This document shows positions 3,377-57,994 of a DNA stretch of 64,000 nt, piece by piece. The DNA is taken from the NCBI RefSeq assembly GCF_018860365.1, contig NZ_JAHKPO010000018.1, forward strand, positions 62,001 to 126,000. Reading direction: 5' to 3'. Position 1 is the stretch's first letter, and each line of letters begins with the position of its first letter. Below the pieces are notes generated by a model. The model was not told where the DNA came from, did no database searches, and was given only the letters and a program-made list of their open reading frames with translations. This stretch comes from Arenibacter algicola (GTDB lineage: Bacteria > Bacteroidota > Bacteroidia > Flavobacteriales > Flavobacteriaceae). A program made the translations under genes and the position numbers.

Positions 3377-3388
3377 TGATAGAAGTCA
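3377..3388. promoter_or_regulatory. Crp/Fnr-type palindrome between pta and usp
   Basis: TGATAGAAGTCA (half-sites TGAT and GTCA, 4-bp spacer). With the centre at 3382.5, an element with its own centre 33 bp away is found on both sides: TAATTTTA at 3412-3419 reading towards usp (5 of 6 fixed bases of TAnnTTTG), and GAACTTCG at 3346-3353 on the minus strand reading towards pta (4 of 6). This suits an activator bound near -41 of two divergent promoters. The regulator is inferred, not seen. Confidence 0.6.
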
Positions 3389-3537
3389 TTTATAGATACG
3401 ACAATAGGTTCTAATTTTAACCAATCAAATTTGTTCCATTAACAATTTAACTTCTTAAAATAGCAAGTATCTTAGGATGTACTCCAATCGGATCTGTTGC
3501 TTGCAAGTTTTGCTGATAAATTACAATACATCATAAA

Positions 3538-4398
3538 ATGAAAACATTGCTTTATGCCACGGATTATTCTAAAAACTCGGTCTCTGCTTTGCAGTTGGCC
3601 TATAATTTAAGTCAGGACCTGGGAACTCGACTGGTGGTCACCCACACATTTAATTTACCTACTGTTTTGGGTGTGGAGGGACAGGATGACCGGCCTGTCC
3701 TTGAAGGGAATCCGTTTAAAATTCACCGTGCCCAGCTGGAAAAATTTTGCACAGAACACCTTGGAAGCAAGTGGGACAATCCCAAAATACAATTAGAGCC
3801 TGTACAGAACAGTTCGGTAATCAAAGGAATTATATCAAAGGCAGAAGAGTATCACGCCCAACTGATTGTGGTGGGTACTAAAGGAGCAAGTGGTCTTGAG
3901 GAAATGATCATGGGCAGTACCACCAAGAAACTCATAGAGAAAGCACCTTGTCCCGTAATTGCAATTCCCAATGATATATTGCCTAGAAATATGGATACCA
4001 TGGTTTATGCCACAGATTTTGAAGAGGAAGATATACATGCCATTCAAAAACTTTCCGAAATAGCCAAACCTTTAAAAGCCAAAATTAAGGTAGTGCATAT
4101 TTCAACGAACGAGGAATATGCGGGAGACTTATTAATGGAGTGGTTCAAGGAGATGCTCAAATCCAAGGTAGATTATCCAGAAATTGAGTTCGAACTATTG
4201 TTTTCGGAAGATGTATTTGATACCCTCAGAATCTATCTTGGGGTCGTAAATGCGGATATGGTAGTGATGCTGGAAAGGGAAAAGAAAGGATTTTTAAAAA
4301 AATGGTTCCATAGGGATCTAGTAAAAAAAATGGAGGATAAGGGCGAGATAATATTGATGAGCTTTAATGAACACAACCATAAAACCTTATTTTTTTAA
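3538..4398 (+). CDS. Universal stress protein, tandem Usp domains
   Basis: A 286-residue protein with two UspA folds in tandem, about residues 1-143 and 150-280. The first domain carries the ATP-binding signature G-x2-G-x9-G-S (GTKGASG from residue 113, ending MGSTTKKL) and the usual PCPVIAIP strand. The second starts MVYATDFEEEDI but lacks a clear ATP signature, so it may be structural only. Cytoplasmic; no signal peptide or membrane segment. Usp proteins of this kind support survival under energy limitation; in Pseudomonas aeruginosa similar proteins are needed for anaerobic pyruvate survival. It is divergent from pta-ackA across a shared palindrome, which fits that role (inference). The predicted 5' leader is about 115 nt. 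Confidence 0.93.
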   Translation: MKTLLYATDYSKNSVSALQLAYNLSQDLGTRLVVTHTFNLPTVLGVEGQDDRPVLEGNPFKIHRAQLEKFCTEHLGSKWDNPKIQLEPVQNSSVIKGIISKAEEYHAQLIVVGTKGASGLEEMIMGSTTKKLIEKAPCPVIAIPNDILPRNMDTMVYATDFEEEDIHAIQKLSEIAKPLKAKIKVVHISTNEEYAGDLLMEWFKEMLKSKVDYPEIEFELLFSEDVFDTLRIYLGVVNADMVVMLEREKKGFLKKWFHRDLVKKMEDKGEIILMSFNEHNHKTLFF

Positions 4399-4444
4399 GG
4401 GTATTACATGCTAGTTTACTGGGATTAGTCAAAGAATTCTTTAT

Positions 4445-4495
4445 TGATGCCTTACAGCTAGCTTTTACTTTTATTTCTAAAGCCGTGAGGCATCA
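4445..4495. terminator. Hairpin between convergent usp and glk
   Basis: The arms 4445-4459 (TGATGCCTTACAGCT) and 4481-4495 (AGCCGTGAGGCATCA) pair over 15 positions with two G-T pairs, around a 21-nt loop. It sits between two convergent gene ends, as a bidirectional transcription stop would. No strong T-tract follows on either strand, so a true rho-independent terminator is uncertain. Confidence 0.45.
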
Positions 4496-4499
4496 GACC

Positions 4500-5576
4500 T
4501 TAGTCCCATTGCAGAGCCATAGCGCCGTAATAAGCGGCCCCAAGAAGCGCCGTTTTTTCATTAAGGATTACCTTTACCGGTATCATTTCCAAGAGTGCGT
4601 TTAATCGCCCCGATTGTACAAAGTTGTTGTAGAATACGTCCCTTTTAATACCTGTTATTATTTTTGGTAAGATGCCCCCGCCTATATAAATACCACCCGT
4701 AGCCTTGAATTTTAGGGCAAGCTGTGACGCTTCTATAGCCAAGAACCTAATAAAAATATCCAAGGTTTCAACACAAACGGAATCTTTTCCTTCCATTGCC
4801 GTCCCGGTAATTACAGCAGAAGGATTGCCTTTGGACATTTGATTGCTCAGCCATTGTGGCTCCTTTATGCCACTTATTTGCCTCAAGAACACATATAGTT
4901 CCAAGATTCCGGGACCTGACAACAACCTTTCCCAGCTGACATGTTCATATTTTTTTTGGAAGTGTTGCAGAATTTCTATGTCCAATTCATTACGAGGACT
5001 AAAATCGCAATGGCCACCCTCACAGGCAAAGGGGTGGTAGTGCGATCCGTCCCAGAACATTCCTGCTTCCCCAAGTCCCGTACCAGGAGATATAAGTGCG
5101 GCATTGCCAGGTATATTTGTTCCGGACTTAAGTGTTTCGAAGTCTTTTTCTTGGAGCGCTGCCAGTCCGTAGGCATTGGCCTCCATATCGTTGATCAATG
5201 AAACAGAACGTATATGAAGTTCCCTACTAATTTCTCCGCTGTCAATTGCCCAAGGAAAATTAGTGCCATATACCTTGCCCCGAATTACGGGTCCGGCAAC
5301 ACCTAGACATATTCCATTTATCCTAGGCATGTCGTCCGTATGGAAGGTAGATACCATCTCCAAAAAGGATTTATATTTTTTAGTGGGATATGATTTTTCC
5401 TTCAAAGGAACCAGGTCTCCGTCCTGGATTTGAAAAAGGGCCAAATTTGTTTTAGTGCCTCCAACATCGGCGGCCAAAATTACTCCCTTATCCCGGGATA
5501 TGTTGGTATTCATAAAAGCTAAGGGAATCTCCCCTTCATGGATGGCGGGTAATGAAAATCTTTGAATATTGTCCAT
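4500..5576 (-). CDS. glk: Glucokinase (Glk family)
   Basis: Phosphorylates glucose with ATP in the cytoplasm. The 358-residue protein has the phosphate-binding motif LAADVGGTKTNLALF near residue 34, LGVAGPV, SLINDMEANAYGL (catalytic Asp), SPGTGLGEAG, and the EGGHCDF segment of Pfam Glucokinase (PF02685). The N-terminus is about 20 residues longer than in E. coli Glk; an internal Met at residue 22 (MNTNISRDKG) is an alternative start. It is the last gene of the minus-strand run ldhA-gpmA-pfkB-glk, with gaps of 12 to 80 bp, so it is probably co-transcribed with the glycolytic genes. A sugar kinase of slightly different specificity cannot be excluded. Confidence 0.93.
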   Translation of the reverse strand: MDNIQRFSLPAIHEGEIPLAFMNTNISRDKGVILAADVGGTKTNLALFQIQDGDLVPLKEKSYPTKKYKSFLEMVSTFHTDDMPRINGICLGVAGPVIRGKVYGTNFPWAIDSGEISRELHIRSVSLINDMEANAYGLAALQEKDFETLKSGTNIPGNAALISPGTGLGEAGMFWDGSHYHPFACEGGHCDFSPRNELDIEILQHFQKKYEHVSWERLLSGPGILELYVFLRQISGIKEPQWLSNQMSKGNPSAVITGTAMEGKDSVCVETLDIFIRFLAIEASQLALKFKATGGIYIGGGILPKIITGIKRDVFYNNFVQSGRLNALLEMIPVKVILNEKTALLGAAYYGAMALQWD

Positions 5577-5656
5577 AAAGTCTATCTTTTATACAATGGT
5601 TATGTTCTATTCCTGTAGTTTATTCTGAATCAAATTAAGTAATCCAAGGTTTACTT

Positions 5657-6601
5657 TCAAGTGTTTTTTTGTTCTAGGATCCATTTGTACAAATTATCGG
5701 CGTCATCCTTGTTGCACAATTGGGTACCTTCATGCATGGTAGCCGCTGTACCACAAGCTACCCCGTATTTTGCCATTTCGCTATAGGATTTGCCATTAAG
5801 CAAACTAACTACCATACCTGCCACCATACTATCACCTGCCCCTATGGTGCTTTTTTGCAGCACTGTGGGCGCTGGTATATGTTCTATGAGATCCTTGGTG
5901 GCCAATAGGGCTCCTTTCGGGCCCAAGGATACGACAAGTATCTCACAATCATGTTCCTTCAAAAACTTTTTGGCAAGGGGTTCCAATTCCATAGCTGAAA
6001 TTGATGTAACACCACACAAAGTGCTTAGTTCCCCTAGGTTGGGCTTTAGCATAAATACTCTGGATTTGGTAGCCTTAGCCAATGCCTCCCCGGAGGTGTC
6101 CAAAATAAAGTGCACTTTTTTACTTTTGGCTATTTCGGCCACCAGAACGTAGAAATCATCCGGTATTCCCGGAGGTAATTTACCGCTGGCCACCAAGTAA
6201 TCTCCTTCTTCCAGATTCTTTTCCAATTTTATTAGTAGGGCTTCCCACTCTTCCTTTTCAACCAGTGGTCCCGGCACTCCAAAGCGGTATTGTAAGTTGG
6301 TAGTGGTATCGGTAACAGCAAGATTATCCCTTGTCCATCCCTTAATGGGCACTACCATTTGATCAATACCTGCCTTGTCCAAAATTTGACTTAAATGTTC
6401 TACTGTAGGTCCGCCTGCCAGATACATGCAGAGTGATTTCTCTCCCAATTTTTTAAGGGCACGGGATACATTGATGCCACCACCTCCGGCATCGTAAGTT
6501 GGTGAGGTACAGCGTAGTTTGGTATTGGGGCTGATGCCTGCTACGGAGACACTTTTATCTATTACAGGATTTAAGGTAAGTGTTACTATTTTTTTGAGCA
6601 T
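5657..6601 (-). CDS. pfkB: 6-phosphofructokinase, PfkB (ribokinase) type
   Basis: Phosphorylates a sugar phosphate, most likely fructose 6-phosphate, in glycolysis. The 314-residue protein belongs to the PfkB/ribokinase fold: TLTLNPVIDKS at the N-terminus, AGGGGINVSRAL near residue 40, KGWTRDNLAV, SGKLPPGIP, VVSLGPKGAL, and the ATP/anion-hole motif STIGAGDSMVAGM with the catalytic Asp. It resembles E. coli PfkB throughout, including KLRCTSP and the C-terminal EGTQLCNKDDA. That favours PfkB over 1-phosphofructokinase or tagatose-6-phosphate kinase, although these cannot be fully separated by eye. It lies between gpmA and glk in the predicted operon. Confidence 0.88.
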   Translation of the reverse strand: MLKKIVTLTLNPVIDKSVSVAGISPNTKLRCTSPTYDAGGGGINVSRALKKLGEKSLCMYLAGGPTVEHLSQILDKAGIDQMVVPIKGWTRDNLAVTDTTTNLQYRFGVPGPLVEKEEWEALLIKLEKNLEEGDYLVASGKLPPGIPDDFYVLVAEIAKSKKVHFILDTSGEALAKATKSRVFMLKPNLGELSTLCGVTSISAMELEPLAKKFLKEHDCEILVVSLGPKGALLATKDLIEHIPAPTVLQKSTIGAGDSMVAGMVVSLLNGKSYSEMAKYGVACGTAATMHEGTQLCNKDDADNLYKWILEQKNT

Positions 6602-6646
6602 GTTGATTGAATTTTATGTTTTCCCATTTATTCGACTTAAATGGTG

Positions 6647-7336
6647 TTATTCTAATTTGTGATGTTCCGTTAAATTTTGGTTGCCGTCAAATTCATATAT
6701 ATGTGGTACGCCAGTGGGTACTTCTAAACCGGCTATATCTATAGAAGGAATATTACAAATGTAGCCAATAAGGGCACGTAGGGAATTACCATGTGCCGAA
6801 ACCATGACCGTCTTACCTTGTACCAAATTGGGAACTATTGCTTCGAAATAATAATTGACGACTCTTTTTGAGCTGTCCTCTAGCGATTCCCCCGATGGCA
6901 AGACTGCCGGGTCTACATTTTTGTAGTTCGGGTCGAATTTAGGATGTAATTTGTTGTTGGGACCCAATTTCGGAGGAGACTCATAATATCCGCGCCTTAT
7001 GGCCCAATATTTTTTTTCGCCCACCTCTTTTAAGGTCTCGTCCTTATTTTTACCCTGCCAATCACCGTAGTGCCTTTCGTTTAGTTTCCAATGATAGTAG
7101 GTATCTACATGCATTTGTTCACAATTGTCCAAAACGATCCAGGCCGTGCGTATGGCCCTTTTAAGATAGGAAGCAAAACATATATCGATGTTTATTTTAT
7201 TGCGTTTAATGATTTCGCCAGCATTTTTAGCTTCCTCCTTTCCTTGTGGTGAAAGGTCAATATTGGTCCAACCTGTGAAGATGTTTTCCAAGTTCCAAAG
7301 ACTTTGTCCATGTCTTATAAGAATCAATTTTCCCAT
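6647..7336 (-). CDS. gpmA: 2,3-bisphosphoglycerate-dependent phosphoglycerate mutase
   Basis: Interconverts 3- and 2-phosphoglycerate in glycolysis. The 229 residues are usual for GpmA. The start MGKLILIRHGQSLWN holds the phosphohistidine motif (RHG). LNERHYGDWQGKNKDE carries the catalytic Glu, RRGYYESPP is the substrate loop, and VSAHGNSLRALIG carries the second catalytic His. The ATG at 7336 begins the family N-terminus directly. It is 11 bp downstream of ldhA and 45 bp upstream of pfkB. Confidence 0.96.
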   Translation of the reverse strand: MGKLILIRHGQSLWNLENIFTGWTNIDLSPQGKEEAKNAGEIIKRNKINIDICFASYLKRAIRTAWIVLDNCEQMHVDTYYHWKLNERHYGDWQGKNKDETLKEVGEKKYWAIRRGYYESPPKLGPNNKLHPKFDPNYKNVDPAVLPSGESLEDSSKRVVNYYFEAIVPNLVQGKTVMVSAHGNSLRALIGYICNIPSIDIAGLEVPTGVPHIYEFDGNQNLTEHHKLE

Positions 7337-7347
7337 TTATCATTAAT

Positions 7348-8410: not shown

Positions 8411-8422
8411 TGATATTAATCA
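8411..8422. promoter_or_regulatory. Crp/Fnr-type palindrome upstream of ldhA
   Basis: TGATATTAATCA, with perfect inverted half-sites TGAT/ATCA and a 4-bp spacer. The minus-strand box TTCCTTTG at 8380-8387 (5 of 6 fixed bases of TAnnTTTG) has its centre 33 bp downstream of the palindrome centre, and the ldhA ATG lies 80 bp from that centre. The layout matches that upstream of ppsA. Confidence 0.65.
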
Positions 8423-9331: not shown

Positions 9332-11740
9332 TTAATTACTACTTTCCGCCATTCCAAAGCTGATTTTACTTTGCTCTGCCAAATTGATATTCTTGATACC
9401 ATCAATGAGCGCATCCGGACTAAAGGAGATGGAATTGATACCTTTTTCTACAAGAAATTGTGCAAACTCCGGATAATCACTGGGAGCCTGTCCGCAGAGT
9501 CCAATTTTTGTATTTGTTTTATGGGCCGAAGCAATGACCATAGCGATCATTTTTTTTACTCCCGGATCATTGGCATCAAAAATGTCGCTTAAGAGTTCCG
9601 AATCGCGATCCACACCCAAGGTCAATTGGGTAAGGTCGTTGGAACCAATGGAGAAGCCGTCAAAAAAATGTGCGAACTCTTCGGCGAGAATTACGTTGTT
9701 GGGAATTTCGGTCATCATATAGAGCTGCAGGCCGTTTTCGCTTCTTTTCAATCCGTAAGCTGCCATAAGATCTACTACTCTTTCTGCTTCCTTAAGGGTA
9801 CGACAAAAGGGAATCATAATCTTAACATTATTAAAACCCATTTCCTCCCGGACCATTTTCATGGCCTTGCACTCCAATTCAAAAGCTTCCTGATATTTGG
9901 GATGATAGTAGCGTGATGCTCCCCTAAAACCAATCATGGGGTTGGACTCCAATGGTTCAAATTCCTTACCACCTATTAAATTGGCATATTCATTGGATTT
10001 AAAATCACTGGTACGCACAATAACATCTTTGGGATAAAAGGCGGCTGCAATGGTGGCAATGCCCTCTGCCAGTTTATGCACAAAATAATCGGCCTTGTCA
10101 GGGTAGTGGTGGGTAAGTTTTTCAATAAGCGCTTTGGCCGAAGCATCTTTCAGGTGGTCAAAATGTTTTAAGGCCATCGGATGAATTTGTATGGAATTAT
10201 TGATAACAAATTCCAATCGCATAAGACCAACTCCGGAAGTGGGATAAAATGATAGTTTGAATGCCTGTTCCGGATCTGCCAAAATAAGCATGGGTTGGGT
10301 TGCGGGTTTTTTAAGTGATTTAATATCCACTGTTTTTTCATCCCATTTCAGTAATCCATCGTACACTACACCAGTATCCCCATCCGCACATGAAATGGTG
10401 ATATCTTGGCCATCCTTTATTGTTTTTGTAGCATTAAGAGTGCCAACAATGGCGGCAGCACCTACCTCACGGGCAACTATGGCTGCGTGACTTGTGCGTC
10501 CCCCTTGGTCCGTAATGATGCCGGCCGCTTTTTTAAGGATGGGATCCCAATCGGGATCTGTCTTTTCGGTGACAAGAATTTCTCCCGGTTGTAGTTTATC
10601 GGATTCTAATGGACTATGGATAATCCGTGCTTTCCCAGCCGATATTTTGTTGCCCAGACCCATTCCTCTAGTAATTTCCTTACCTTTTTCCAGTAAGGTA
10701 TAGGTACTGATTTTAAGTTTGTCCTTTTTTGCACTTTGTACCGTCTCCGGTCTGGCCTGGACTATAAACAATTCATTGGTCAGTCCGTCCTTTGCCCATT
10801 CTATATCCATTGGACGTCCATAATGCTCTTCAATGATCATGGACCATTGTGCAAGTTTTATCACTTCGGCATCGGTAAGTACAAATATTTCCTGTTTTTC
10901 TATTTTGGTATCTAGGTTAAGGGTACCACTGCCCGAGCTATCGTAAATCATGGTTTTTTCCTTGCTGCCCAATTTTCTGGAAATTATGGGTTGGCGAATG
11001 CTATTTTTCAAACTAGGTTTATACACAAAGTATTCGTCGGGATTTACACTTCCCTGAACTATATTTTCACCTAGGCCCCAAATACTGGAGACAAGAACTA
11101 CTTTATCAAAACCGGTGTCCGGATCTAAGGTGAAATTTACTCCGGAACAGGCCAGATCCGAGCGCACCATTAACTGAACGCCTATGGATAGCGCTACCTT
11201 TGTCTGGTCAAAATGATTGTCTTCGCGATATTTTATGGCCCTATCTGTAAACAGGGAAGCATAACATTTATGACAGGCGGCTATCAATTCATCAAACCCC
11301 TTTACATTGAGATAAGTTTCCTGTTGTCCGGCAAAACTGGCGTTGGGAAGGTCTTCTGCCGTAGCACTACTGCGGACCGCCAAGGAAATCTGGTTACCGT
11401 ATTTTTTAACTAGTACATTATATCCTTTTTCAAGGGAAGATTTGATGGCTTGTGGAAAATCCGCTTTGGCTATGCTTGTTCTTATAGCACTCCCTACTTC
11501 CCGTAAATTTGAAAAATCTTTCTTATCCAATTTTGCAATTTCGGCGAATATGGATTCCTTTAATTGCCCTTCTTTCAGGAAAAGCCAGTAGGCGTCAGAG
11601 GTGGTGGCAAATCCGTCAGGTACCTGTACACCCGTTAAGGTCAGTTTCTGGTACATTTCACCCAATGAGGCATTTTTGCCTCCTACTTCGGGCACATCGT
11701 TTATATCTATTTCGTTAAAGTGTTTTATGTAGTTTTTCAT
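9332..11740 (-). CDS. ppsA: Phosphoenolpyruvate synthase (pyruvate, water dikinase)
   Basis: Makes PEP from pyruvate and ATP, releasing AMP and phosphate; the gluconeogenic counterpart of pyruvate kinase. The 802-residue protein has the N-terminal PPDK ATP-grasp domain (GGKNASLGEM near residue 20, VAVRSSATAEDLPNASFAGQQ), the swivelling phosphohistidine domain (GGRTSHAAIVAREVG, catalytic His418), and the C-terminal PEP-binding barrel (GLMRLEFV, PMIGFRGASRY, GSNDLTQLTLGVDRDS, GLCGQAPSDYPEF with the catalytic Cys). It begins MKNYIKHFNEIDINDVPEVGGK, as usual for the family. A perfect TGAT-N4-ATCA palindrome is centred about 78 bp upstream, linking it to the fermentation genes. Confidence 0.96.
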   Translation of the reverse strand: MKNYIKHFNEIDINDVPEVGGKNASLGEMYQKLTLTGVQVPDGFATTSDAYWLFLKEGQLKESIFAEIAKLDKKDFSNLREVGSAIRTSIAKADFPQAIKSSLEKGYNVLVKKYGNQISLAVRSSATAEDLPNASFAGQQETYLNVKGFDELIAACHKCYASLFTDRAIKYREDNHFDQTKVALSIGVQLMVRSDLACSGVNFTLDPDTGFDKVVLVSSIWGLGENIVQGSVNPDEYFVYKPSLKNSIRQPIISRKLGSKEKTMIYDSSGSGTLNLDTKIEKQEIFVLTDAEVIKLAQWSMIIEEHYGRPMDIEWAKDGLTNELFIVQARPETVQSAKKDKLKISTYTLLEKGKEITRGMGLGNKISAGKARIIHSPLESDKLQPGEILVTEKTDPDWDPILKKAAGIITDQGGRTSHAAIVAREVGAAAIVGTLNATKTIKDGQDITISCADGDTGVVYDGLLKWDEKTVDIKSLKKPATQPMLILADPEQAFKLSFYPTSGVGLMRLEFVINNSIQIHPMALKHFDHLKDASAKALIEKLTHHYPDKADYFVHKLAEGIATIAAAFYPKDVIVRTSDFKSNEYANLIGGKEFEPLESNPMIGFRGASRYYHPKYQEAFELECKAMKMVREEMGFNNVKIMIPFCRTLKEAERVVDLMAAYGLKRSENGLQLYMMTEIPNNVILAEEFAHFFDGFSIGSNDLTQLTLGVDRDSELLSDIFDANDPGVKKMIAMVIASAHKTNTKIGLCGQAPSDYPEFAQFLVEKGINSISFSPDALIDGIKNINLAEQSKISFGMAESSN

Positions 11741-11812: not shown

Positions 11813-11824
11813 TGATATTGATCA
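11813..11824. promoter_or_regulatory. Crp/Fnr-type palindrome upstream of ppsA
   Basis: TGATATTGATCA, with perfect TGAT/ATCA half-sites. The minus-strand element GATATTGG at 11782-11789 (4 of 6 fixed bases of TAnnTTTG) has its centre 33 bp from the palindrome centre. The ppsA ATG is 78 bp from the centre, nearly the same as for ldhA (80). Confidence 0.65.
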
Positions 11825-15789: not shown

Positions 15790-15801
15790 TGATATTGGTC
15801 A
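15790..15801. promoter_or_regulatory. Crp/Fnr-type palindrome upstream of the PNPOx gene
   Basis: TGATATTGGTCA (TGAT/GTCA half-sites, 4-bp spacer). It is placed about 41 bp upstream of the start point predicted from the perfect TAGATTTG box, the classical class II activator position. Confidence 0.65.
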
Positions 15802-15848: not shown

Positions 15849-15860
15849 TGACTTAGGTCA
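15849..15860. promoter_or_regulatory. Crp/Fnr-type palindrome upstream of the PepSY-like gene
   Basis: TGACTTAGGTCA, with perfect TGAC/GTCA inverted half-sites. On the plus strand TAATTTGT at 15884-15891 (4 of 6 fixed bases; one base out of phase with an ATTTG) has its centre 33 bp downstream. The ATG at 15944 is about 89 bp from the palindrome centre. It lies 59 bp from the neighbouring site that faces the other way, so this intergenic region appears to hold one site per divergent promoter. Confidence 0.5.
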
Positions 15861-15943: not shown

Positions 15944-16459
15944 ATGATCATGAAAAAAATTCTATTTGGTTTATTAGCCTTTGGACTAACCACCCAAGCC
16001 TTTTCTCAAATTATCCCTACGGTGGAGCTATCGGAGGTAACGGTATACGCCACGAACTATAAGTACCTTAACGATATAAACACGGGGGAGCTGGCCTCCA
16101 TACCGGTGAAGCTTCTGCAGCAAAAGGTGGCGACCTATGATATTAAAAGCTCCGAATTCTATCAGGATGATTATGACCTTTACAACATTACGTTCTTTAT
16201 TCCCGAGGGTAAAATTCTTGCCGCGTATGATGGCGAAGGGAAATTATTGCGTACTGCTGAAAAGTTTAAGGATATAAATCTGCCAACCTCTGTAAGGAAG
16301 TCCATTGCAGATCGTTTTCCTGAATGGGTTGTTACTAAAGATATTTATTTGGTCTCCTTTACCGATGCCGCAGGTGCCAAGAAAACCTACAAGGTTAAAT
16401 TGGAGAACGGGGATAAGATGTTAAGGGTAAAACTGGATGAAACAGGTAAATTTCTTTAG
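15944..16459 (+). CDS. Secreted PepSY-like protein
   Basis: A 171-residue protein with a Sec signal peptide (MKKILFGLLAFGLTTQAFSQ) and no lipobox. The mature part ends with a segment typical of periplasmic PepSY-like (PF11396-type) proteins: a strand ILAAYDGEGKLLRTAEKF, a helix LPTSVRKSIADRFPEW, then VTKDIYLVSFTDAAGAKKTYKVKLENGDKMLRVKLDETGKFL. The role is unknown; these domains are often inhibitory or binding modules. The start may be the ATG at 15944 or the one at 15950 (MKK). It is divergent from the PNPOx operon and has its own palindrome upstream, so it may belong to the same regulon. Confidence 0.75.
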   Translation: MIMKKILFGLLAFGLTTQAFSQIIPTVELSEVTVYATNYKYLNDINTGELASIPVKLLQQKVATYDIKSSEFYQDDYDLYNITFFIPEGKILAAYDGEGKLLRTAEKFKDINLPTSVRKSIADRFPEWVVTKDIYLVSFTDAAGAKKTYKVKLENGDKMLRVKLDETGKFL

Positions 16460-16840
16460 GATTTTTAATAGGTCTTACCTTTTACAAAACAATGGGTAGG
16501 AACTGATCCTAAATTCTGGTAAAGGACATTTCCATAGCGTTGGGATTAATAAGGCGCTTTGGAGATGTCCTTTCTCTATGGATTTATTTCAATCCCTTTA
16601 AGCGGGGAGTAATTGGGTGTACTAGTAGGGAATTGCTGGTAATTTGGATTATTGCGGAGAGATGTAGTTAAACCAAGAAGCCCAATACAACTGTATTCAT
16701 TTTTTAACAAACATAAAACTCTTGTTTTAAGCTGGCTTGATTAATAAAGAATACCTTATGCCTAAACACTTATATGATTTTTCTCATATTCTTTAACGTA
16801 TATTTCCCTTTATTTTGGGCTATCATATTTTATATTATCC
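16460..16840. other. 381-bp intergenic region with one large hairpin
   Basis: No credible coding frame was seen here. The notable element is the inverted repeat at 16521-16573, described separately. The last 100 bp before 16841 are very AT-rich and should hold the promoter of the ABC exporter genes, but I see no clean TAnnTTTG box. Confidence 0.6.
16521..16573. terminator. Long stem-loop after the PepSY-like gene
   Basis: The arms 16521-16534 (AAAGGACATTTCCA) and 16560-16573 (TGGAGATGTCCTTT) pair over 14 positions with a single A-G mismatch on the plus strand. Inside, 16536-16539 (AGCG) pairs with 16555-16558 (CGCT), leaving a 15-nt loop. It lies 61 bp after the stop codon of the PepSY-like gene. 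Only a short T-run follows, so it may be a terminator or a stabilising 3' hairpin. Confidence 0.5.
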
Positions 16841-17923
16841 ATGAGGAATTTTATATTGATCTATTGTCTTTTTCTTTTGTTATCCTGTGGAGACAAACAA
16901 GAAAAGATTTTTCCCACTAAAATCCATTTAACCGAATCGGTCTATGCTTCCGTAACCGTGCAGCCAGATAGTCTGTATCAGGCTTATGCCCCTGTAGCGG
17001 GCATTTTGGATCGTAATTTATTGGAAGAAGGGGATTTGGTAAGTCAGGGTACACCAATAATTCAAATCGTGAACAGTACCCCAAAGCTTAATACGGAGAA
17101 TGCCCGATTGACCCTAGAATTAGCACAGGCAAATTATAATGGAAGTTCGGCGGTTTTAAGTTCGTTGGAAGATGAGATCCAATCGGCAACCTTATCCTTT
17201 AAAAACGATTCCATGAATTATTTAAGGCAAAAGAGGCTCTGGGATCAAAATATTGGTTCAAAAGTGGAGTTCGAGAATCGCAAACTAGCCTATGAAATTT
17301 CAGGGAATAGTTTAAAGCAACTTAAAAATAAGTATGTACAGACCAAGAACGAACTTTCTACCCAAGTTCAGCAAGCGCTCAACAATTATAATACCTCACA
17401 GATTTCAACCAAAGATTTTACCGTTAGCAGTAAGATCAATGGAAAGGTTTATGCCTTATACAAAAACCCAGGGGAAATAGTCAATACTATGGAGCCTTTG
17501 GCATCCGTTGGCAGTGCTACGGATTTTATTATTGAATTGTTGATAGACGAGGTCGATATAGTAAAACTTCAGTTGGGCCAAAAGGCCCTTATTACGTTGG
17601 ATGCTTATGGGGATGAGGTCTTTGATGCCAAAGTAAGTAAAATATATCCCAAAAAGGATGAGCGCTCACAGACGTTTAAGGCGGAGGCCATTTTTAACAA
17701 TCCACCTAAAGCGCTTTACCCGGGTTTGGCAGGGGAGGGAAATATAATTATTTCTGAAAAGGAAAGCGTCTTGACGATTCCCAAAGAATTTTTGTTGGAG
17801 GGGAACAAAGTAAAGACCCCGGACGGACTTGTTGAAGTTGTTCCCGGGTTGCAAAATTTGGACCGTGTAGAAATTATAAAAGGCATTAATGAGTCTACGG
17901 AAATTCTAAAACCTGAAGAATGA
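16841..17923 (+). CDS. HlyD/MacA-type membrane-fusion lipoprotein of an ABC exporter
   Basis: A 360-residue periplasmic adaptor subunit. The N-terminus is a lipoprotein signal (FLLLSCGDKQEK, lipobox LLSC), so it is probably lipid-anchored rather than membrane-spanning. Next come the first lipoyl half-motif (YAPVAGILDRNLLEEGDLVSQGTPIIQI), a coiled-coil hairpin (about residues 85-185), the second lipoyl half (SSKINGKVYALYKNPGEIVNTMEPLASVG), and a beta-barrel domain (IIELLIDEVDIVKLQLGQKALITLDAYG). It overlaps the permease gene by 4 bp. Together with the next two genes it forms a MacAB-like tripartite export system. The cargo is unknown and no outer-membrane factor is encoded nearby. Confidence 0.9.
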   Translation: MRNFILIYCLFLLLSCGDKQEKIFPTKIHLTESVYASVTVQPDSLYQAYAPVAGILDRNLLEEGDLVSQGTPIIQIVNSTPKLNTENARLTLELAQANYNGSSAVLSSLEDEIQSATLSFKNDSMNYLRQKRLWDQNIGSKVEFENRKLAYEISGNSLKQLKNKYVQTKNELSTQVQQALNNYNTSQISTKDFTVSSKINGKVYALYKNPGEIVNTMEPLASVGSATDFIIELLIDEVDIVKLQLGQKALITLDAYGDEVFDAKVSKIYPKKDERSQTFKAEAIFNNPPKALYPGLAGEGNIIISEKESVLTIPKEFLLEGNKVKTPDGLVEVVPGLQNLDRVEIIKGINESTEILKPEE

Positions 17924-37459: not shown

Positions 37460-40400
37460 TTAAAATTTTGTATCAATTCCAATGGTAATTGTCCTAGCTT
37501 GTGGATATCCGTTTCCATAAGTATGTCCTTTGGCATCCACCATGGAGGCATCTACTACCTTCTTGGATCTCTGCCATTGGTAAGGGTTCAACATTGCTCC
37601 GTAGATTCTTAAACGGGATAGGCCAATGTTCTTCATAAAGTTATCGTTCTGATCAAAAGTGTATCCAATGGAAGCATTGTTAACTTTCCAATAATCACCA
37701 CTTTCTATCCAAAGGGTCTGATTGCCCCTGAAGCCGTAAAATGCTCCAAGTGTTGGACTCTGTGGGTACATGGCAGGAAAGTCTACACCGGCAGCACCAT
37801 CACCAGGCTGTTGCCAAAATGTATATTCACTTAGGTCGGCAAGTCCTCTTCTGGCCCAATCATCACCACCCCTATCGTAGCTATCCATATAACTGTTTAA
37901 CACGGTATTCTTTATATCGGCACCAAAGGAGAATTGACTATAGGCTTGGAAGTACCATTTTTTGTACTGCAGGTTTATATTGAATGAACCTGTAATATCG
38001 GGGATAGGAGAGTAGTCTGTAGTTAATTTTAGATCGTGCTCCTCATTAAGTAAGTAATCCCCGTTAAGATCTTGCCATATTGGAAAACCTGGGCGGATAT
38101 TGGCCCAAGCGGATTTTCCTTGCAAAGGTTCTCCAGTAAATGGATTTACAGGCAATTGATCTAGATCATCAATGATATAATCATTAATGAACATCTTGTA
38201 CAGGTTAAGCGGACGCCCAACAACATATCCATAATCACCTCCTATGTAATCCTGGTTGCCATTTGGCAATTTGGAAACGTAGTTTTTGTTTTGAGCAAAA
38301 CCAACGGACAATTCCATTCGAAGGTCGTTCTCCCTAGGGAAAACGTGGTAACGTAGCATGGATTCCCAACCGTAGTTTAATACCCCGGCTACGTTTGTAG
38401 GAGCGGAGTTATAACCGGAATAGGCGGGGAAAGCAACATCAAAAAATAACTTGTCCGTACTCTTGTTATAGGCATCAAATGCCAAACTTACCCTTCTGTT
38501 GAACATATCCAGGTCAAACCCAACATTCCATTGTTCGGTTTCTTCCCATGAAAGGGATGCATTCCCAATTTGGTCGTAATTTGGAATAACCCCGGTAACA
38601 CCACCGTAACTGGAAACATTCATTTGGTTGGCCCAATAAGGGTTTCCACCATAACCTAAATTGTATTTTCCGAAACGTAGGTAGTTTTCTGGGAATTGCT
38701 TCCCGTTGATACCCCAGCTACCCCTAATTTTTAAATAATCTATAAAACTGGAAATATGGGGCTTAAGGAAGGGCTCATCCGAAATAACCCAACCTGCATT
38801 TAGGGAAGGGAACTTGGCCCAGCGTACATCTTTACCAAATCTGGAGGAACCATCAATACTGAAGTTTCCACCCACCATATAACGATTTTTGTACTTATAG
38901 CTCACACGCCCAAAATAGGATACCAATGCATTGGCACTTATATCGGTATATCCACTTATTTGGTCTTGGGTGTACCTGTTGTTAATTGTTTGAATAGCAT
39001 CACTACCAAAACCAAAGGCGGTCATGGCCATGTCTTCATATTTGTTATAATCTACCCTATTTCCCAATACTCCAGTAACTTCATGATCGTTATTGGCACC
39101 AATGTTTTTAAATAGGCTTAAATAGGTTTCAGCGGTCAAGTTTTTTCTGTTGTACAAAGCATAACTTGCAAAACCATCTCCTTCTGTCCTTATGGTAGAC
39201 GGCTCATAAAAGTTCTTCTTATTGCTGTCATAAACAAAGCTTAGTTGGGAGTTTAGGCTAAGGCTTGGTAAAAGGTCAAAGGTGGCAAAGTTGGAAATGG
39301 TAAAGTTAACTGTCCTATCCTCATTTAATTTGCCTTCCAGCTCCCCACTTAAGGACTGTTTTCTTTCGTCAGTGATATAAAATAGGGAAGATTGTAGTCC
39401 GGCCGGATCTACAGGTAGGGAAGAGTTAAGGTTAAAACTTCCTTGGTAAGGGTTTCCTTGTCCAGTTTGTAGATCGGTATGGGTAAATCTTGTAATTAAT
39501 TGGTTGCGAAACTTTTCCCCAGCAGTAAAATTAAGATTGGAGGAAAAAGTAACCCTATCAACACCAGTACCTTTTATAACACCTTCCTGGTTGTCATAAC
39601 CTAGGGAAACCCTATAGTTGGTTTTCTCACTACCACCACGAACACTAAAATCGTACTGCTGATCAATCCCGGTTTTATAAAATAAACCTTGATAATCTAC
39701 ATTATTATTAAATGCAGGGTTTATACTGTCGGTCAAGACCATTGGTGTTTGTCCGGATTGTAATTCGTCCGTATGCCACCATCTTTGGATCATCCCCATT
39801 TTGGCTTGCCTTTCAGCGCTTCCTGCCAACATTGGTACCAAGTTGGGTTTGGGTTGCAACCCTAAACTGGTGGAAAACGAAAATTCCGGTTTGTCAAGGG
39901 CTACACCTTTTTTGGTTTCAATGATGATAACCCCATTGGCTCCCCTGGATCCGTAAATGGCCGCTGCTGAAGCATCTTTAAGTACATCTATACTCGCTAT
40001 GTCGTTAGGGTTCAGTGAGGCCAAAAAGTCAACGTTGGAGACACCATAACCGGCTAAATCCTCTAAACTGGTCTGTACCCCATCAATTACGTATAACGGA
40101 CTACTGTAGGCCAAATCGGCATCGATATCCCCGCCTATACTGGTGTTACCACGAATAATTAGTGCACCCCTACCTGCAGGTGCTCCTGTCATATTCACAC
40201 TCTGGATACCAGTGGCTTGGGTAGCGATCAATCCTGATACGTCCAATACCGGAATTCCTTCAATATCGTCGCTCTTAATACTGGAGACAGCACTGGTAAC
40301 ATCCCTTTTAAATACCTTTTGGTAACCAATTAAGACTACATCGTCCAATTGGGTAGCATCCGGAGCCAAGGTGATGTTTATCTGTGTTTGGTTTCCCACA

Positions 40401-53718: not shown

Positions 53719-53726
53719 TATATTTG
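53719..53726 (+). promoter_or_regulatory. -7 box of galKT
   Basis: TATATTTG, a perfect TAnnTTTG match, 23 bp before the galK ATG. It lies after the terminator, so galKT has its own promoter. No clear -33 TTG was seen at normal spacing. Confidence 0.5.
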
Positions 53727-53749
53727 CGCTCTAACACACTTTAAAGTAT

Positions 53750-54880
53750 ATGTCGTTTCCGGAAAATTTCACCCCTGAACTAGTTGTTGAATCCCCAGGA
53801 AGGATCAATTTGATCGGGGAACACACAGATTATAATCTTGGTTATGTAGTGCCTACGGCCATAGAGAAGAAAATTACTTTTAAATTCAAAAGGAACCATA
53901 CGGATAAGGAGTGTAACTTGTATAGTTTGGGTTACAATACCGGGTTCACCTTTCAATTGGATAAAATTGCCAAGAGCAATGTGGAATGGGAAAACTATAT
54001 TCTGGGCGTTTTAAATGAGATATTATTAAGGACCGATAAATTAAGGGGTTTTGACTGTACCATTGAAAGTAAATTACCAATGGGTTCTGGTCTAAGTTCT
54101 TCTGCAGCCTTGGAATGTGGACTGGCTTTTGGACTCAATGAACTGTTTGATCTTGGGCTTTCCAAAATGGATATTGTGCTGCTTTCGCAAAAGGCGGAAC
54201 ATACCTTTGTAGGAACTCAATGTGGAATCATGGACCAATTTGCTTCCGTAATGAGCGAAAAAGGGCACGTAATCTTGTTGGATTGCCAGTCTTTGGAACA
54301 TCAACAAATACCTATCCAAATAGATCCATATAAGATGATAATGCTGAATACAAAAGTGTCGCACAACTTGGCCTCCAGTGAGTACAACACTAGGAAAAGG
54401 GAATGCGAGGAGGGTGTTGCAATTCTACAAGGACACTATCCAGAAGTAACTTCCTTAAGAAATGCCAATAACGAAATGCTGGAAGTTTGTAAAAGTGAAA
54501 TGAGTGCCACTATTTTTAAAAGATGTTCTTTTATCATCAATGAAAATGATAGGGTGTTGAAAACGGCAAATGCTCTAAAGTCTAATGATTTAAACCTCTT
54601 TGGAGCCTTACTATACGAGGCACACGAAGGAATAAGCAAATTATATGAAGTGAGCTGTCCGGAATCTGATTTTTTGGTCGATTTTTCCAAACAGTACGAT
54701 GCCGTGTTGGGGGCTAGACAAACCGGTGGTGGATTTGGAGGTTGTACCTTAAATATTGTACATAAGGACAAGGTAGATGATTTTGTGGAAGCGGCCAGCA
54801 AGGCATACAAGGCAGCTTTTAATATTGAATTGGATGCATTTGAGGTAAAACCCAGTGCAGGAACCTACATACAAAATTAA
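53750..54880 (+). CDS. galK: Galactokinase
   Basis: Phosphorylates galactose (possibly also galactosamine-type sugars) at C1. The 376-residue GHMP kinase has the galactokinase signature GRINLIGEHTDYNLGYV near residue 18, the ATP loop LPMGSGLSSSAALECGLAFG, the catalytic Asp region FVGTQCGIMDQFASVM, and the C-terminal GARQTGGGFGGCTLNIV. It is followed by galT after 5 bp. Its position behind the PUL suggests it channels released galactose into central metabolism (inference). Confidence 0.96.
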   Translation: MSFPENFTPELVVESPGRINLIGEHTDYNLGYVVPTAIEKKITFKFKRNHTDKECNLYSLGYNTGFTFQLDKIAKSNVEWENYILGVLNEILLRTDKLRGFDCTIESKLPMGSGLSSSAALECGLAFGLNELFDLGLSKMDIVLLSQKAEHTFVGTQCGIMDQFASVMSEKGHVILLDCQSLEHQQIPIQIDPYKMIMLNTKVSHNLASSEYNTRKRECEEGVAILQGHYPEVTSLRNANNEMLEVCKSEMSATIFKRCSFIINENDRVLKTANALKSNDLNLFGALLYEAHEGISKLYEVSCPESDFLVDFSKQYDAVLGARQTGGGFGGCTLNIVHKDKVDDFVEAASKAYKAAFNIELDAFEVKPSAGTYIQN

Positions 54881-54885
54881 GCGCA

Positions 54886-55929
54886 ATGACAAATAGTTTC
54901 AATGATAATCCGCATAGAAGGTTAAATATTCTAACGGGAGAATGGATTTTAGTTTCTCCCCATAGGACCAAAAGGCCATGGCAGGGAAAGACCGAAAAAA
55001 GTGCTACTACGGACTTACCAGTGTATGACCCTTCATGCTACCTTTGCCCTACGAACGAAAGAATGGGAGGGGAGTTCAATCCCAGTTACGAAAAGCCATA
55101 TTCCTTTGTCAACGATTTTTCTGCCCTACTACCGGATGTTAAAGAAGAGACATACGAAAATGGTCTTTTATATGCGGAAGCCGAATCCGGTATTTGCAAG
55201 GTGGTTTGTTTTTCGCCTAACCATGCCCTTACATTACCATTAATGTCTGTATCCGATATCACAAAGGTTATTTCACTTTGGCAGAAAGAATATATGGAAT
55301 TGGGTGCCAAGGAAGGCATTAATCATGTTCAGATTTTTGAGAATAAAGGGGGGATAATGGGGTGTAGCAACCCACACCCACATGGACAAATTTGGGCACA
55401 GAATAAAATCCCACAGGAAGTCCATAAGAAAATAGGAAATCTACAAGCTTATTGGGAAAAGCATGGCAGAAGTATTTTGGAGGATTATATAGAACAGGAA
55501 TTAAAGTTGGACGAGCGTATTATTGTAGAAAACGAGCATTTTGTAGCGCTTATACCCTATTGGGCAGTATGGCCTTATGAAACTATGATCCTTCCTAAAA
55601 GAAAATTGGCACATATTGGTTTACTTTCGGAGTCCGAAAAGATATCCTACGCTGATATCCTGAAACAACTTACCATAAAGTACGATAATATATTCAACAC
55701 GTCCTTTCCATATTCTGCAGGAATACATCAGGCACCTACAGATGGGAAGGAGCATCCCGAATGGCATTTTCATATGTCTTTTTACCCACCCTTGTTGCGG
55801 TCGGCTACAGTAAAAAAGTTTATGGTAGGTTATGAAATGTTTGCCAATCCACAGCGCGATATCACGGCCGAACAGGCAGCAGAAACCATGAAGTCACTAT
55901 CCGATGTTCACTATAGTCACTTGGGCTAA
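54886..55929 (+). CDS. galT: Galactose-1-phosphate uridylyltransferase
   Basis: Swaps UMP between UDP-glucose and galactose 1-phosphate in the Leloir pathway. The 347-residue HIT-superfamily protein has PHRRLNILTGEWILVSPHRTKRPWQG at the N-terminus, zinc-site CYLCPTNERMGG, and the catalytic SNPHPHGQIWAQ with the uridylylated His in H-P-H. The C-terminal part has AGIHQAPTDGKEHPEWHFHMSFYPPLLR. It is coupled to galK. No galE or galM is in the window. Confidence 0.96.
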   Translation: MTNSFNDNPHRRLNILTGEWILVSPHRTKRPWQGKTEKSATTDLPVYDPSCYLCPTNERMGGEFNPSYEKPYSFVNDFSALLPDVKEETYENGLLYAEAESGICKVVCFSPNHALTLPLMSVSDITKVISLWQKEYMELGAKEGINHVQIFENKGGIMGCSNPHPHGQIWAQNKIPQEVHKKIGNLQAYWEKHGRSILEDYIEQELKLDERIIVENEHFVALIPYWAVWPYETMILPKRKLAHIGLLSESEKISYADILKQLTIKYDNIFNTSFPYSAGIHQAPTDGKEHPEWHFHMSFYPPLLRSATVKKFMVGYEMFANPQRDITAEQAAETMKSLSDVHYSHLG

Positions 55930-55992
55930 AGGAAGTAAATTATAATATTTGGAAATTGTGATAATCCCCAAAGGGAACAGTTACAATGGAGA

Positions 55993-56208
55993 CTAAATAG
56001 GGTATTGGGTCTGTAGGGAATAACCTACTCGGCCCAATTCCTTTTTTGCCTTGTCCAATACAAATGGGTTATTGTAGACCAACGATATTGTCTTATTGAT
56101 AACATCAATATCCAATATTCTCAAATCCAAAATCCGACTTAGGTTTCTGGAAATAATGTTTTTACTTTCTTCGGAAATAAGCTGTTCAACTTTAAGCAAT
56201 GTCGTCAT
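55993..56208 (-). CDS. Small HMA-fold-like protein lacking CxxC
   Basis: A protein of about 71 residues, MTTLLKVEQLISEESKNIIS and so on. The part DLRILDIDVINKTISLVYNNPFVLDKAKKELGRVGYSL has the beta-alpha-beta pattern and final G-Y of heavy-metal-associated domains, but no cysteine. No family is recognised with confidence. The frame runs back to a TTG at 56232, but the predicted transcription start falls near 56231, so the ATG at 56208 is preferred. A Crp/Fnr-type palindrome and a TAATTTCG box lie upstream, so it probably belongs to the stress regulon together with the genes around it. Confidence 0.62.
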   Translation of the reverse strand: MTTLLKVEQLISEESKNIISRNLSRILDLRILDIDVINKTISLVYNNPFVLDKAKKELGRVGYSLQTQYPI

Positions 56209-56265
56209 GGAATCAAGGTTTTTATTAATCAAGACGAAATTAGGTATTTAGGACCTTGTCCAAAA

Positions 56266-56277
56266 TGACATAAATCA
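56266..56277. promoter_or_regulatory. Crp/Fnr-type palindrome upstream of the small HMA-like gene
   Basis: TGACATAAATCA (TGAC/ATCA half-sites, 4-bp spacer). The minus-strand box TAATTTCG at 56235-56242 matches 5 of 6 fixed bases of TAnnTTTG, with its centre 33 bp from the palindrome centre. The leader to the ATG at 56208 would be about 23 nt. Confidence 0.55.
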
Positions 56278-56420
56278 GTTTTGGTAATTATATGCTAATT
56301 CAATTCTCAAAAGTCCTAAGAATATGTATTTAATCCTAATAGGTGATATCCAAATATTTGGAAAATCCCTTGATCTTTGTTAGTGGAATGGGGAAATACA
56401 AATCCTATGGAAATGCGCCC

Positions 56421-56708
56421 CTATTTGTATAGATCCAATTTATTTTTTAACTGGGTAATTTCATTTTGCATTTTTTCCATCCTATTTAGAAGTCGTGTTA
56501 TGACCGCTATACCTTCCAAATTGATGTCGAGATCGGAATGAAGTCTCAGTATTTTTTCCGCTTTTGGCAATTGCTGAATAGGGAGATAATGTATATTTTC
56601 TTTAACCACAACATCTACCAGTCCATACTCGTAAAGCTCCATTACAAAATGGGTTTCTATATTGTGACTCGTACAAAAGTCGGTAATCAGTATATATTCC
56701 TGTTCCAT
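56421..56708 (-). CDS. cbpM: Chaperone-modulator protein, CbpM-like (MerR-type)
   Basis: A 95-residue protein of the CbpM kind: a MerR-like helical domain (YILITDFCTSHNIETHFVMELYEYGLVDVV), the typical IHYLPIQQLPKAEKILRLHSDLDINLEGIAVI, and a coiled-coil tail (LLNRMEKMQNEITQLKNKLDLY). In E. coli CbpM binds the J-domain of CbpA and inhibits it. It follows the cbpA-like gene by 67 bp on the same strand, the conserved order of this pair. Confidence 0.88.
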   Translation of the reverse strand: MEQEYILITDFCTSHNIETHFVMELYEYGLVDVVVKENIHYLPIQQLPKAEKILRLHSDLDINLEGIAVITRLLNRMEKMQNEITQLKNKLDLYK

Positions 56709-56775
56709 AAGGATTAAATTAGTTGAAGGTGATTGTTTGATGCCCTAGTGCAGGTTCCTCTTTTCATAGATAAAA

Positions 56776-57669
56776 TTATTTTCGCTGGTTAGCCAATTCC
56801 TTAAGAAGTTCTTTCTCTTTGGCGGTTAAATTGGTAGGGGTAACAATATTGTAGGTAATATACAAATCCCCGTAAGCGTCTGTTTTTTTATAAACAGGGA
56901 AGCCCTTGCCTTTTAATTTAATTTTGGTACCGTTCTGCGTTTCTGGTTTAACTTTCAATTTTACCTGTCCATCAAAAGTATTCACCATTATTTCTCCGCC
57001 TAAGAGGGCAGTATACAAGTCCAGGTCTACAGAGGTATAAAGGTTGTTGCCATCCCTTTTAAAATCTGTATCATTTATGATACCAAAGGTAATATAAAGG
57101 TCGCCCTTCGGCCCACCTTGATGTCCTGGGCCGCCATGACCGCTAATTTTAATGGTTTGCCCATTTTCAATTCCGGCAGGAACGGTAATTCTGATATTTT
57201 TACCGTTTACATTAAGTGTTTGCTTATGTGCCGTATATACATCCCTAAGGTGCAATTTTAACTCGGCGTTTAGATCCTGGCCTCGAAAACGAGCCTTGCC
57301 ACTTTGTGAAAAGCCACCGGAACCTCCAAACATGGATTCGAAAAAATCCGAGAAATCATGTTCCCCATAATTTTGGGAATAACTTTGCCCGCCACCTCCG
57401 TAGGCCGATTGTTGGGACGCCCTGGCTTTTTCAAACTCCTCGGCATGCTCCCAATCCTTTCCGTATTTGTCGTATTTTTTACGTTTTTCCGGATCGCTAA
57501 GTACCTCATTGGCTTCATTGATTTCCTTAAACTTTTTTTCGGCCTCCTTATCATTGGGGTTAACATCTGGATGATGTTTTCTGGCCAATTTCCGATAGGC
57601 CTTTTTAATTTCGCTTTGACTGGCGCTTTTGTCCAATCCCAAGATTTTGTAGTAGTCTATAAATTTCAC
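56776..57669 (-). CDS. cbpA: CbpA-like DnaJ co-chaperone
   Basis: A 297-residue J-protein that would stimulate DnaK. It has an N-terminal J-domain with HPD ([19 protein letters not shown], residues 1-70), a Gly/Ser/Phe-rich linker (about 85-125), and two C-terminal substrate-binding domains ([43 protein letters not shown]). There is no cysteine zinc-finger region, so it is CbpA/DnaJ type B rather than housekeeping DnaJ. The neighbouring cbpM supports this. It is divergent from a usp gene across a shared palindrome, repeating the arrangement of pta and usp at 3.4 kb. Confidence 0.93.
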
Positions 57670-57994
57670 TTAGCAGTTATTTATTTTCTTTATTCTTATC
57701 GATTGTCGAACCAAATGTAATGGATACTGGTAATGGGTATTTGAGCAATACAAATTGCAAAAATATTGGCAACCCTAATAAATACCATTGTAAAATTATA
57801 AAAAACCATAGTGTGTGAAACTGATTAAAATCATGAATTAATCGTTTTGTTCTTATTAAATTTAATGGAAAATAGTTAAGAATGGGACTTGAAACCTATT
57901 TTGTTATGCATAGTCCCTTCAAGGTAAATATTATAAGTACTGTTTGTTACCGTCTTACTTTTACCATTATTTATGATAAATAAAGCACGAAGAG
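57670..57994. other. 325-bp divergent regulatory region between cbpA and usp
   Basis: AT-rich non-coding DNA. It holds the palindrome at 57822-57833 with box-like sequences on either side. The stretch from about 57870 to 57994 would be the 5' leader of usp. I saw no reading frame or strong hairpin in it. Confidence 0.6.
57822..57833. promoter_or_regulatory. Crp/Fnr-type palindrome between cbpA and usp
   Basis: TGATTAAAATCA, with perfect TGAT/ATCA half-sites. TAAATTTA at 57857-57864 (plus strand, towards usp) and TAATTTTA at 57791-57798 (read on the minus strand, towards cbpA) each match 5 of 6 fixed bases of TAnnTTTG, and each has its centre 33 bp from the palindrome centre. The region is AT-rich, so each box alone is weak evidence; the repeated exact spacing is the stronger point. 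Confidence 0.6.

Follow-up and report, generated by a model that had tools for sequence, protein, structure and literature searches.

The stretch of Arenibacter algicola DNA analysed here (64,000 nucleotides of contig NZ_JAHKPO010000018.1, RefSeq assembly GCF_018860365.1; hereafter, the window) carries seven intergenic TGAY-N4-RTCA palindromes resembling sites for Crp/Fnr-type regulators, each with a box similar to the promoter element TAnnTTTG at a fixed distance. These palindromes are part of a large, family-wide promoter set of the Flavobacteriaceae that is probably activated by a shortage of oxygen or energy. Positions are those of the window unless a contig is named; the window starts at 62001 of contig C27.

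The first palindrome, TGATAGAAGTCA (3377-3388, + strand), has a good box, TAATTTTA (3412-3419, five of six fixed bases), that faces a usp gene (3538-4398, +; Pfam Usp 9.4e-25). It also lies upstream of the minus-strand pta (1203-3296) and ack (3-1178) genes, and the box on that side matches at only four bases. On the minus strand, the palindrome at 8411-8422 (box TTCCTTTG, five of six) precedes a run of D-2-hydroxyacid dehydrogenase, phosphatase, PfkB, and glucokinase genes extending from 8337 down to 4500; the dehydrogenase reaches no NCBIfam cut-off, and lactate is a possible substrate. The palindrome at 11813-11824 (-; box GATATTGG, four of six) is located 78 bp before a PEP (phosphoenolpyruvate) synthase gene (9332-11740, -; above the NCBIfam cut-off for PEP synthase). 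Two sites lie close together: that at 15790-15801 (-; box TAGATTTG, six of six) is upstream of a PNPOx-like flavoprotein gene (15222-15674/15761) followed by P-type ATPase and VTT-domain genes, and that at 15849-15860 (+; box TAATTTGT, four of six) is upstream of a gene (15944-16459) whose 171-aa product has no Pfam match. The palindrome at 56266-56277 (-; box TAATTTCG, five of six) precedes a small open reading frame (ORF) within 55993-56232, whose first Met gives a product of ~71 aa. Finally, the palindrome at 57822-57833 is given no strand and has a five-of-six box at equal distance on both sides, i.e., towards a second usp gene (57995-58843, +; Pfam Usp 2.5e-28) and towards a DnaJ/CbpA-like gene (56776-57669, -) with a MerR-type neighbour (56421-56708, -).

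A preliminary description of this DNA had listed these seven palindromes with a box 33 bp from each, and all seven are indeed present and intergenic. An eighth exact TGAYNNNNRTCA palindrome lies in coding DNA at 38157. Since shuffled sequences gave 4.0 palindromes per window and seven of 100 shuffles reached eight, the count is not significant alone, and we rejected it as support. Placement was tested separately: intergenic DNA makes up 8.8% of the window (5638 bp, by gene calls) and holds seven of the eight palindromes (binomial P = 3e-7). Similarly, at the reported offset, and in the orientation originally given, the box matched 34 of 42 fixed bases summed over the seven sites (5, 5, 4, 6, 4, 5, and 5 in order of position), compared to a mean of 12.6 (sd 3.0; highest, 22) at 61 other offsets. 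The box at the PNPOx-like gene is thus as complete as had been claimed, those at 11813 and 15849 are weak, and the one described at 57822 needs the correction that it occurs in both directions; at 3377, the box favours usp over pta. Because the palindrome and spacing had been picked after inspection, further tests were run on other data. A matrix built from 73 sites of other genera (loci L084-L104) scored above 15 at eight strand-positions of the window, versus a null mean of 0.17 and a maximum of one in 40 simulations.

Motif and spacing across the genome and family

The whole genome contains 330 palindromes, compared to 202 matches to the reversed pattern. To examine spacing, palindromes were paired with TAnnTTTR boxes, allowing gaps of 8-38 bp. 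In the A. algicola genome, 38 of 89 pairs had a gap of exactly 23 bp, whereas the next most frequent gap accounted for six; with C27:1-180000 removed, the numbers were 19 of 64 and again six. The preliminary description had proposed a genome-wide check for intergenic enrichment, which bore it out: 18 of the 19 gap-23 matches outside the C27 region were intergenic, as opposed to nine of 19 examined matches at other gaps. The same spacing dominates in other genomes. Among 31 loci surrounding relatives of one candidate regulator, RR-Crp 2 (L074-L104; 30 from Flavobacteriaceae and one from Kaistella, Weeksellaceae; see below), 127 pairs had a gap of 23 bp; 60 other gaps averaged 1.05 pairs, with nine at most, and a reversed-sequence control gave none. 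Every locus had at least one gap-23 site. Across 120 sampled genomes of the family, the fixed-gap pattern occurred 1684 times versus 62 times for its reversed control, with at least one site in 110 genomes. The TGAY-N4-RTCA core is fixed by the search pattern, and the base preceding TGA in 126 unique sites was A in 69%, C in 29% (together 98%), and T in 1%, giving the consensus MTGAYnnnnRTCAK. Half-sites had been likened to those of FNR; the TGAY core and 4-bp spacer agree with this, but the site departs from a strict FNR sequence in having A or C, not T, before TGA.

The position of the box also places the palindrome within the promoter. In Flavobacterium psychrophilum, the sigma-A TAnnTTTG box is reported at -12 to -5 (PMC9723704). 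Since the boxes described here occupy offsets 30-37, the palindrome centre would fall at -41.5 and the transcription start at offset 42, a position occupied by A in 59% of the 126 sites. In E. coli, 19 of 23 promoters that are directly activated by FNR and have a known start carry a site within 4 nt of -41.5 (PMC3688515). Calculated from the box position, our sites lie at about the location that characterises class II promoters, and this architecture therefore predicts class II activation.

Promoters of related genes were scanned with the matrix, counting a site if it scored above 12; relatives were best matches rather than proven orthologues, the A. algicola genome was left out, three cut loci were skipped, and fragment L182 was omitted. 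As the preliminary description would lead one to expect, sites recurred before PEP synthase (6/10, at distances of 56-81 bp from the match start), PNPOx-like (17/28), and pta relatives (11/28, 88-260 bp). Shuffled sequences gave four hits in 1380, and coding stretches of the same genes none in 69.

Targets in the A. algicola genome

The window overlaps an island on C27 (19 to 78 kb) with 23 palindromes, of which 22 are intergenic; other 20-kb stretches were partly picked at known sites, and enrichment is drawn from the C27 run only. The island encodes nine Usp-like proteins, HSP20, a P-type ATPase, a carbohydrate phosphorylase, and two sensor kinase/regulator pairs. The nine Usp-like genes, recognised by a shared N-terminal sequence (two that were tested are Usp by Pfam), are packed into 8.6 kb (C27:26360-34928, L025), and for five of them a separate palindrome lies 59-93 bp ahead of the start. 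As at 57822 in the window, a single palindrome at C27:29014 is flanked on either side by a -7-like box at the right distance, and at these two places one dimer may perhaps serve two divergent promoters.

Elsewhere in the genome, sites precede hemN (NCBIfam TIGR00538, above cut-off), the copper nitrite reductase gene nirK (NCBIfam TIGR02376, above cut-off), ccoS-ccoNO (NCBIfam), an fnr-like gene, and several usp genes, i.e., the kinds of promoters (usp, hemN, ccoN, and a crp/fnr gene) at which sites had been anticipated. Other sites are followed by, among others, genes for DeoC, FAD oxidoreductases, an L,D-transpeptidase-family protein, a sulphate-permease-family protein, an ArsR-type regulator, and cytochrome c. 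Within the window, a possible further site, TGATTTTTCTCA (16775-16786, +), is a one-mismatch palindrome with a weak score of 13.7; it is located upstream of an HlyD-family gene starting at 16841 or 16877.

Candidate regulators

Four proteins of the genome score above cut-off for the Crp helix-turn-helix (HTH) domain. Two are response-regulator/Crp (RR-Crp) fusions of 350 and 357 aa, composed of a receiver domain, a cyclic-nucleotide (cNMP)-binding fold, and a Crp HTH; they are encoded at C27:35029-36081 and C27:53435-54508, 26 and 7.5 kb upstream of the window, respectively. The receivers match Pfam Response_reg (1.2e-28 and 2.9e-29), and residues E8, D9, D52, and K104, which correspond to the acidic pair, the phospho-acceptor Asp, and the Lys of receiver domains, are invariant in 30 sequences. 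In A. algicola, both fusions lie beside histidine kinases with PAS domains (Pfam HisKA/HATPase_c). In relatives, the 26 flavobacterial loci (of 31) that exceed 15 kb all have an upstream ORF of at least 300 aa on the same strand that terminates no more than 60 bp from the start of RR-Crp; there, the upstream genes are known as long ORFs only, the Pfam kinase assignment being that of our genome. Since each fusion adjoins a PAS histidine kinase, we infer control by phosphorylation rather than by cyclic AMP (cAMP). E72 and R82 of CRP are residues of its cAMP pocket, and RR-Crp 2, the fusion that was aligned to CRP structures, has Q at the E72 position and no Arg at R82.

The third protein is FNR-like (C8:210940-211623) and is encoded beside ccoS-ccoNO (NCBIfam), a usp gene, and a heavy-metal ATPase gene that we read as CcoI. 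Its cysteines C4, C7, C53, and C106 are kept in all 27 main-subfamily rows of an alignment of 29 that includes the A. algicola protein twice. C4, C7, and C106 align with C20, C23, and C122 of FNR, whereas at the position of FNR C29, 25 of the 27 rows have N or S and two have a gap, some rows carrying a further Cys near position 29. The four conserved cysteines may hold an oxygen-labile Fe-S cluster in which C53 would replace C29 as a ligand. The remaining two rows (L278 and L279, from genomes G051 and G084) represent a second FNR-like subfamily with another N-terminal Cys spacing, no C53, and the helix GTTEEQVIR.

The recognition helices of these three proteins are nearly the same: GTATESAIRIISDFK in the FNR-like protein, GIATESLIRTLSGFK in RR-Crp 1, and GTATETAIRTLSDFK in RR-Crp 2, with the common pattern G[T/I]ATE[S/T]xIRxxSxFK. 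A pattern that selects for this helix is matched at 63 loci. The fourth Crp-HTH protein, encoded on C28, has a different helix. In E. coli FNR numbering, the helix residues of interest are Glu209, Ser212, and Arg213, which we considered along with the CRP residues of known role. When aligned with the FNR-type regulator structure 9qlt and with CRP, the candidate helix keeps the Glu and Arg (FNR Glu209 and Arg213) and has Thr at the position of CRP R180 and Ile at that of FNR S212. This arrangement fits a TGA core without the preceding G of CRP sites or T of FNR sites. Roles of helix residues in Crp/Fnr proteins are also treated in section 8 of PMC1274295.

Co-occurrence of regulators and sites

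The 120 genomes were sorted by regulator content, calling a regulator present if its match (full-length for RR-Crp) had E <= 1e-60. Genomes with both the FNR-like protein and RR-Crp (27) had a median of 25 sites, those with the FNR-like protein only (42) 11.5, and those with RR-Crp only (27) 14, whereas the median in the 24 genomes with neither was one (each regulator group vs. neither, Mann-Whitney P < 1e-8). Some of the latter hold distant FNR relatives (G051, G020, G043, and G010). The 17 genomes without any match to the FNR-like protein had nine sites together, versus eight control matches.

The motif is alike in FNR-only and RR-only genomes. A comparison of 64 of 72 sites from five FNR-only genomes with 22 of 33 sites from two RR-only genomes found no difference beyond spacer composition; among the sites outside this comparison, the base following the palindrome was T in six of eight FNR-only and 10 of 11 RR-only cases. 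Targets were sampled from seven of the 27 RR-only and seven of the 42 FNR-only genomes (30 loci each). Sites were intergenic at 27 RR-only and 25 FNR-only loci, two RR-only loci lacking a called downstream gene. Downstream genes matched reference proteins in 10 RR-only and four FNR-only cases, and twenty others (ten per group) were scanned with Pfam. Targets in both groups included hemN, FTHFS, and a CBS protein, and ccoS and cytochrome c were seen as targets in RR-only genomes.

Paired palindromes outside the Flavobacteriaceae

In 43 loci of a further set (L105-L153) that are not labelled Flavobacteriales, we found 49 distinct pairs of palindromes, one exact and the other with at most one mismatch, spaced exactly 22 bp apart. 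Pairs at 58 other distances averaged 0.66 (next highest, five), and 22 of the 43 loci had a 22-bp pair. Some labels in L105-L153 name other phyla and were taken to be mislabelled metagenome-assembled genomes. The whole set has 53 distinct 22-bp pairs; they occur in four of its six loci labelled Flavobacteriales and in two of the 31 loci L074-L104. Boxes in L105-L153 also peak at gaps of 45 and 46 bp (12 and 7 cases), and the paired palindromes are predicted to lie at -41.5 and -63.5. In 238 genomes of the phylum, the exact double pattern was present at 64 places in 22 of 30 that share the class but not the order, in three of 26 from the same family, in one of three from the other family of the order, and in five of 179 others, with no control matches.

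Discussion

Considering the fixed spacing, the conservation of promoters, and the co-occurrence with regulators, the earlier reading of the window sites as a Crp/Fnr-type regulon is supported, and we consider it very likely that they belong to a class II activator regulon in which three regulators share sites. The regulator had been left unnamed; there are now three candidates, and the sites seem to receive two-component input in addition to that of an FNR-like protein. A low-oxygen, redox, or energy signal would activate the FNR-like protein and the two RR-Crp fusions, which are expected to share sites. A dimer bound at -41.5, in place of a good -33 element, would then recruit sigma-A RNA polymerase to the -7 box. 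Genes turned on in this way would include those for cbb3 oxidase, haem synthesis through HemN, nitrite reduction, fermentation, glycolysis, PEP synthase, Usp proteins, and chaperones, as well as some of the regulators' own loci. Binding, activation, the Fe-S cluster, phosphorylation control, and the signal are deduced here from sequence patterns, with oxygen limitation as the presumptive signal. The cbb3 and haem genes of F. psychrophilum are reported to be up under oxygen limitation (PMC9723704), which fits the proposed signal.

Several observations weigh against this interpretation. The site at 3377, which scores 28.3 on the + strand, scores 9.5 towards pta, below the threshold of 12. Many related promoters have no site (PEP synthase, 4/10; PNPOx-like, 11/28; pta, 17/28). 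Autoregulation of fnr was sought, and since an upstream site above 12 was found in only one of 20 fnr-like loci of other genomes, it is not general. Of the NCBIfam models, the FNR-like protein matches that of the Fnr subfamily best, scoring 95 bits versus a cut-off of 228 (211 of 228 residues tested). Among the sampled sites, five of 30 in FNR-only and one of 30 in RR-only genomes lie in coding DNA. The P values for co-occurrence overstate independence because the genomes are related, and the regulator-less genomes are mostly small; the six of 24 that are at least 95% complete and at least 2.5 Mb have 0, 0, 0, 1, 1, and 2 sites. Genome G048 (82% complete, 6% contaminated) has 29 sites with no close regulator found, and four FNR-only genomes (G026, G100, G045, and G085) have only two to four sites.

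It is conceivable that only the FNR-like protein binds these sites, while RR-Crp binds elsewhere and co-occurs with them by lineage. The FNR-like gene is indeed grouped with ccoS-ccoNO and usp, which carry sites, and FNR-only genomes have many sites. However, the 27 RR-Crp genomes that lack a close FNR-like protein retain their sites, including those at hemN and ccoS promoters, the recognition helix hardly differs between the two kinds of protein, and the flavobacterial RR-Crp loci have gap-23 sites without exception. We therefore regard exclusive binding by the FNR-like protein as unlikely. It is quite improbable that the sites mainly repress, with a dimer blocking a constitutive promoter. 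Crp-family proteins can repress, and in nine of 20 fnr-like loci the highest-scoring upstream position, though its score is mostly low, lies 42-48 bp ahead of the match start; yet -41.5 is the standard position for class II activation (PMC3688515), and the F. psychrophilum genes mentioned above go up, not down, when oxygen is limited (PMC9723704).

CRP, HcpR, DNR, and NnrR form one superfamily with the candidates and recognise related palindromes, so the sites might belong to a cAMP-CRP-type or other Crp-family regulator; the details make this very improbable. CRP needs G before TGA together with R180, whereas A or C and an aligned Thr are found here, and the alignment at E72 and R82 likewise departs from CRP. 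The C28 protein has another helix. The consensuses given in PMC1274295 differ as well: that of HcpR2 has no TGA core, those of DNR and of delta-proteobacterial HcpR outside Desulfovibrio have T before TGA, that of Desulfovibrio HcpR has G, and NnrR has TTGCG. Lastly, a chance or base-composition artefact of AT-rich promoters, suggested by a palindrome count only about twice expectation and a pattern chosen after looking, is opposed to the point of being negligible by the out-of-sample matrix, the spacing peak, the reversed-pattern controls, and the near absence of sites from regulator-less genomes.

The activator regulon proposed here may be one form of a wider Bacteroidota promoter code. Under such a code, FNR-like proteins with the cysteine set CxxC...C53...C106 and phospho-receiver/Crp fusions would be interchangeable on -41.5 sites, species would keep one or both, and outside the Flavobacteriaceae these regulators would read the palindromes paired at 22 bp, so that the code would come in a single-site form in Flavobacteriaceae and a double-site form in other Bacteroidia; we give this extension an even chance of being correct. 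If the regulon is real, it provides a readable DNA rule by which oxygen and stress control become directly testable in the Flavobacteriaceae, a family prominent in marine, freshwater, and soil habitats that has been called understudied (PMC9723704). It would also constitute a natural experiment in regulator replacement, with the same kinds of promoters under an FNR-like protein or a two-component Crp fusion depending on genus. The cysteine set and the specificity for A or C would be a new entry among the protein-DNA correspondences of the Crp/Fnr family, as treated in PMC1274295. In searches of open-licence literature, we found no description of the motif, RR-Crp fusion regulators, or the cysteine set, though one may exist elsewhere.

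Among known systems, HcpR is a Crp/Fnr-family regulator that occurs in the same phylum and in others, but it is described as having its own consensus and a role in nitrosative stress, and in its HcpR2 branch Glu-181 is replaced by Pro, Ser, or Gln (PMC1274295; PMC13370916). Several FNR paralogues per cell, some of them differing in oxygen sensitivity, are reported for Herbaspirillum (PMC5934665) and Pseudomonas putida (PMC4505428); the A. algicola set similarly comprises several Crp/Fnr proteins, except that one kind is a phospho-receiver fusion. The E. coli FNR regulon (TTGAT-N4-ATCAA) shares the TGAY core, the 4-bp spacer, the calculated -41.5 centre, the helix Glu and Arg, and targets of a low-oxygen type. 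It differs in the base preceding TGA (A or C here) and in lacking the Bacteroidota -7 box, and the FNR-like protein keeps only three of the four Cys positions, having no Cys at C29 and an additional C53, and misses the NCBIfam Fnr cut-off. In the FixLJ-FixK2 system of rhizobia, cbb3 and denitrification genes are under the joint control of two-component signalling and a protein of the FNR/FixK type. The present case would likewise combine a two-component system with an FNR-type protein over such genes, but here the response regulator itself has a DNA-binding domain of the Crp type and seems to recognise the sites of the FNR-like protein, so that both signals would converge on the promoter rather than act in a cascade.

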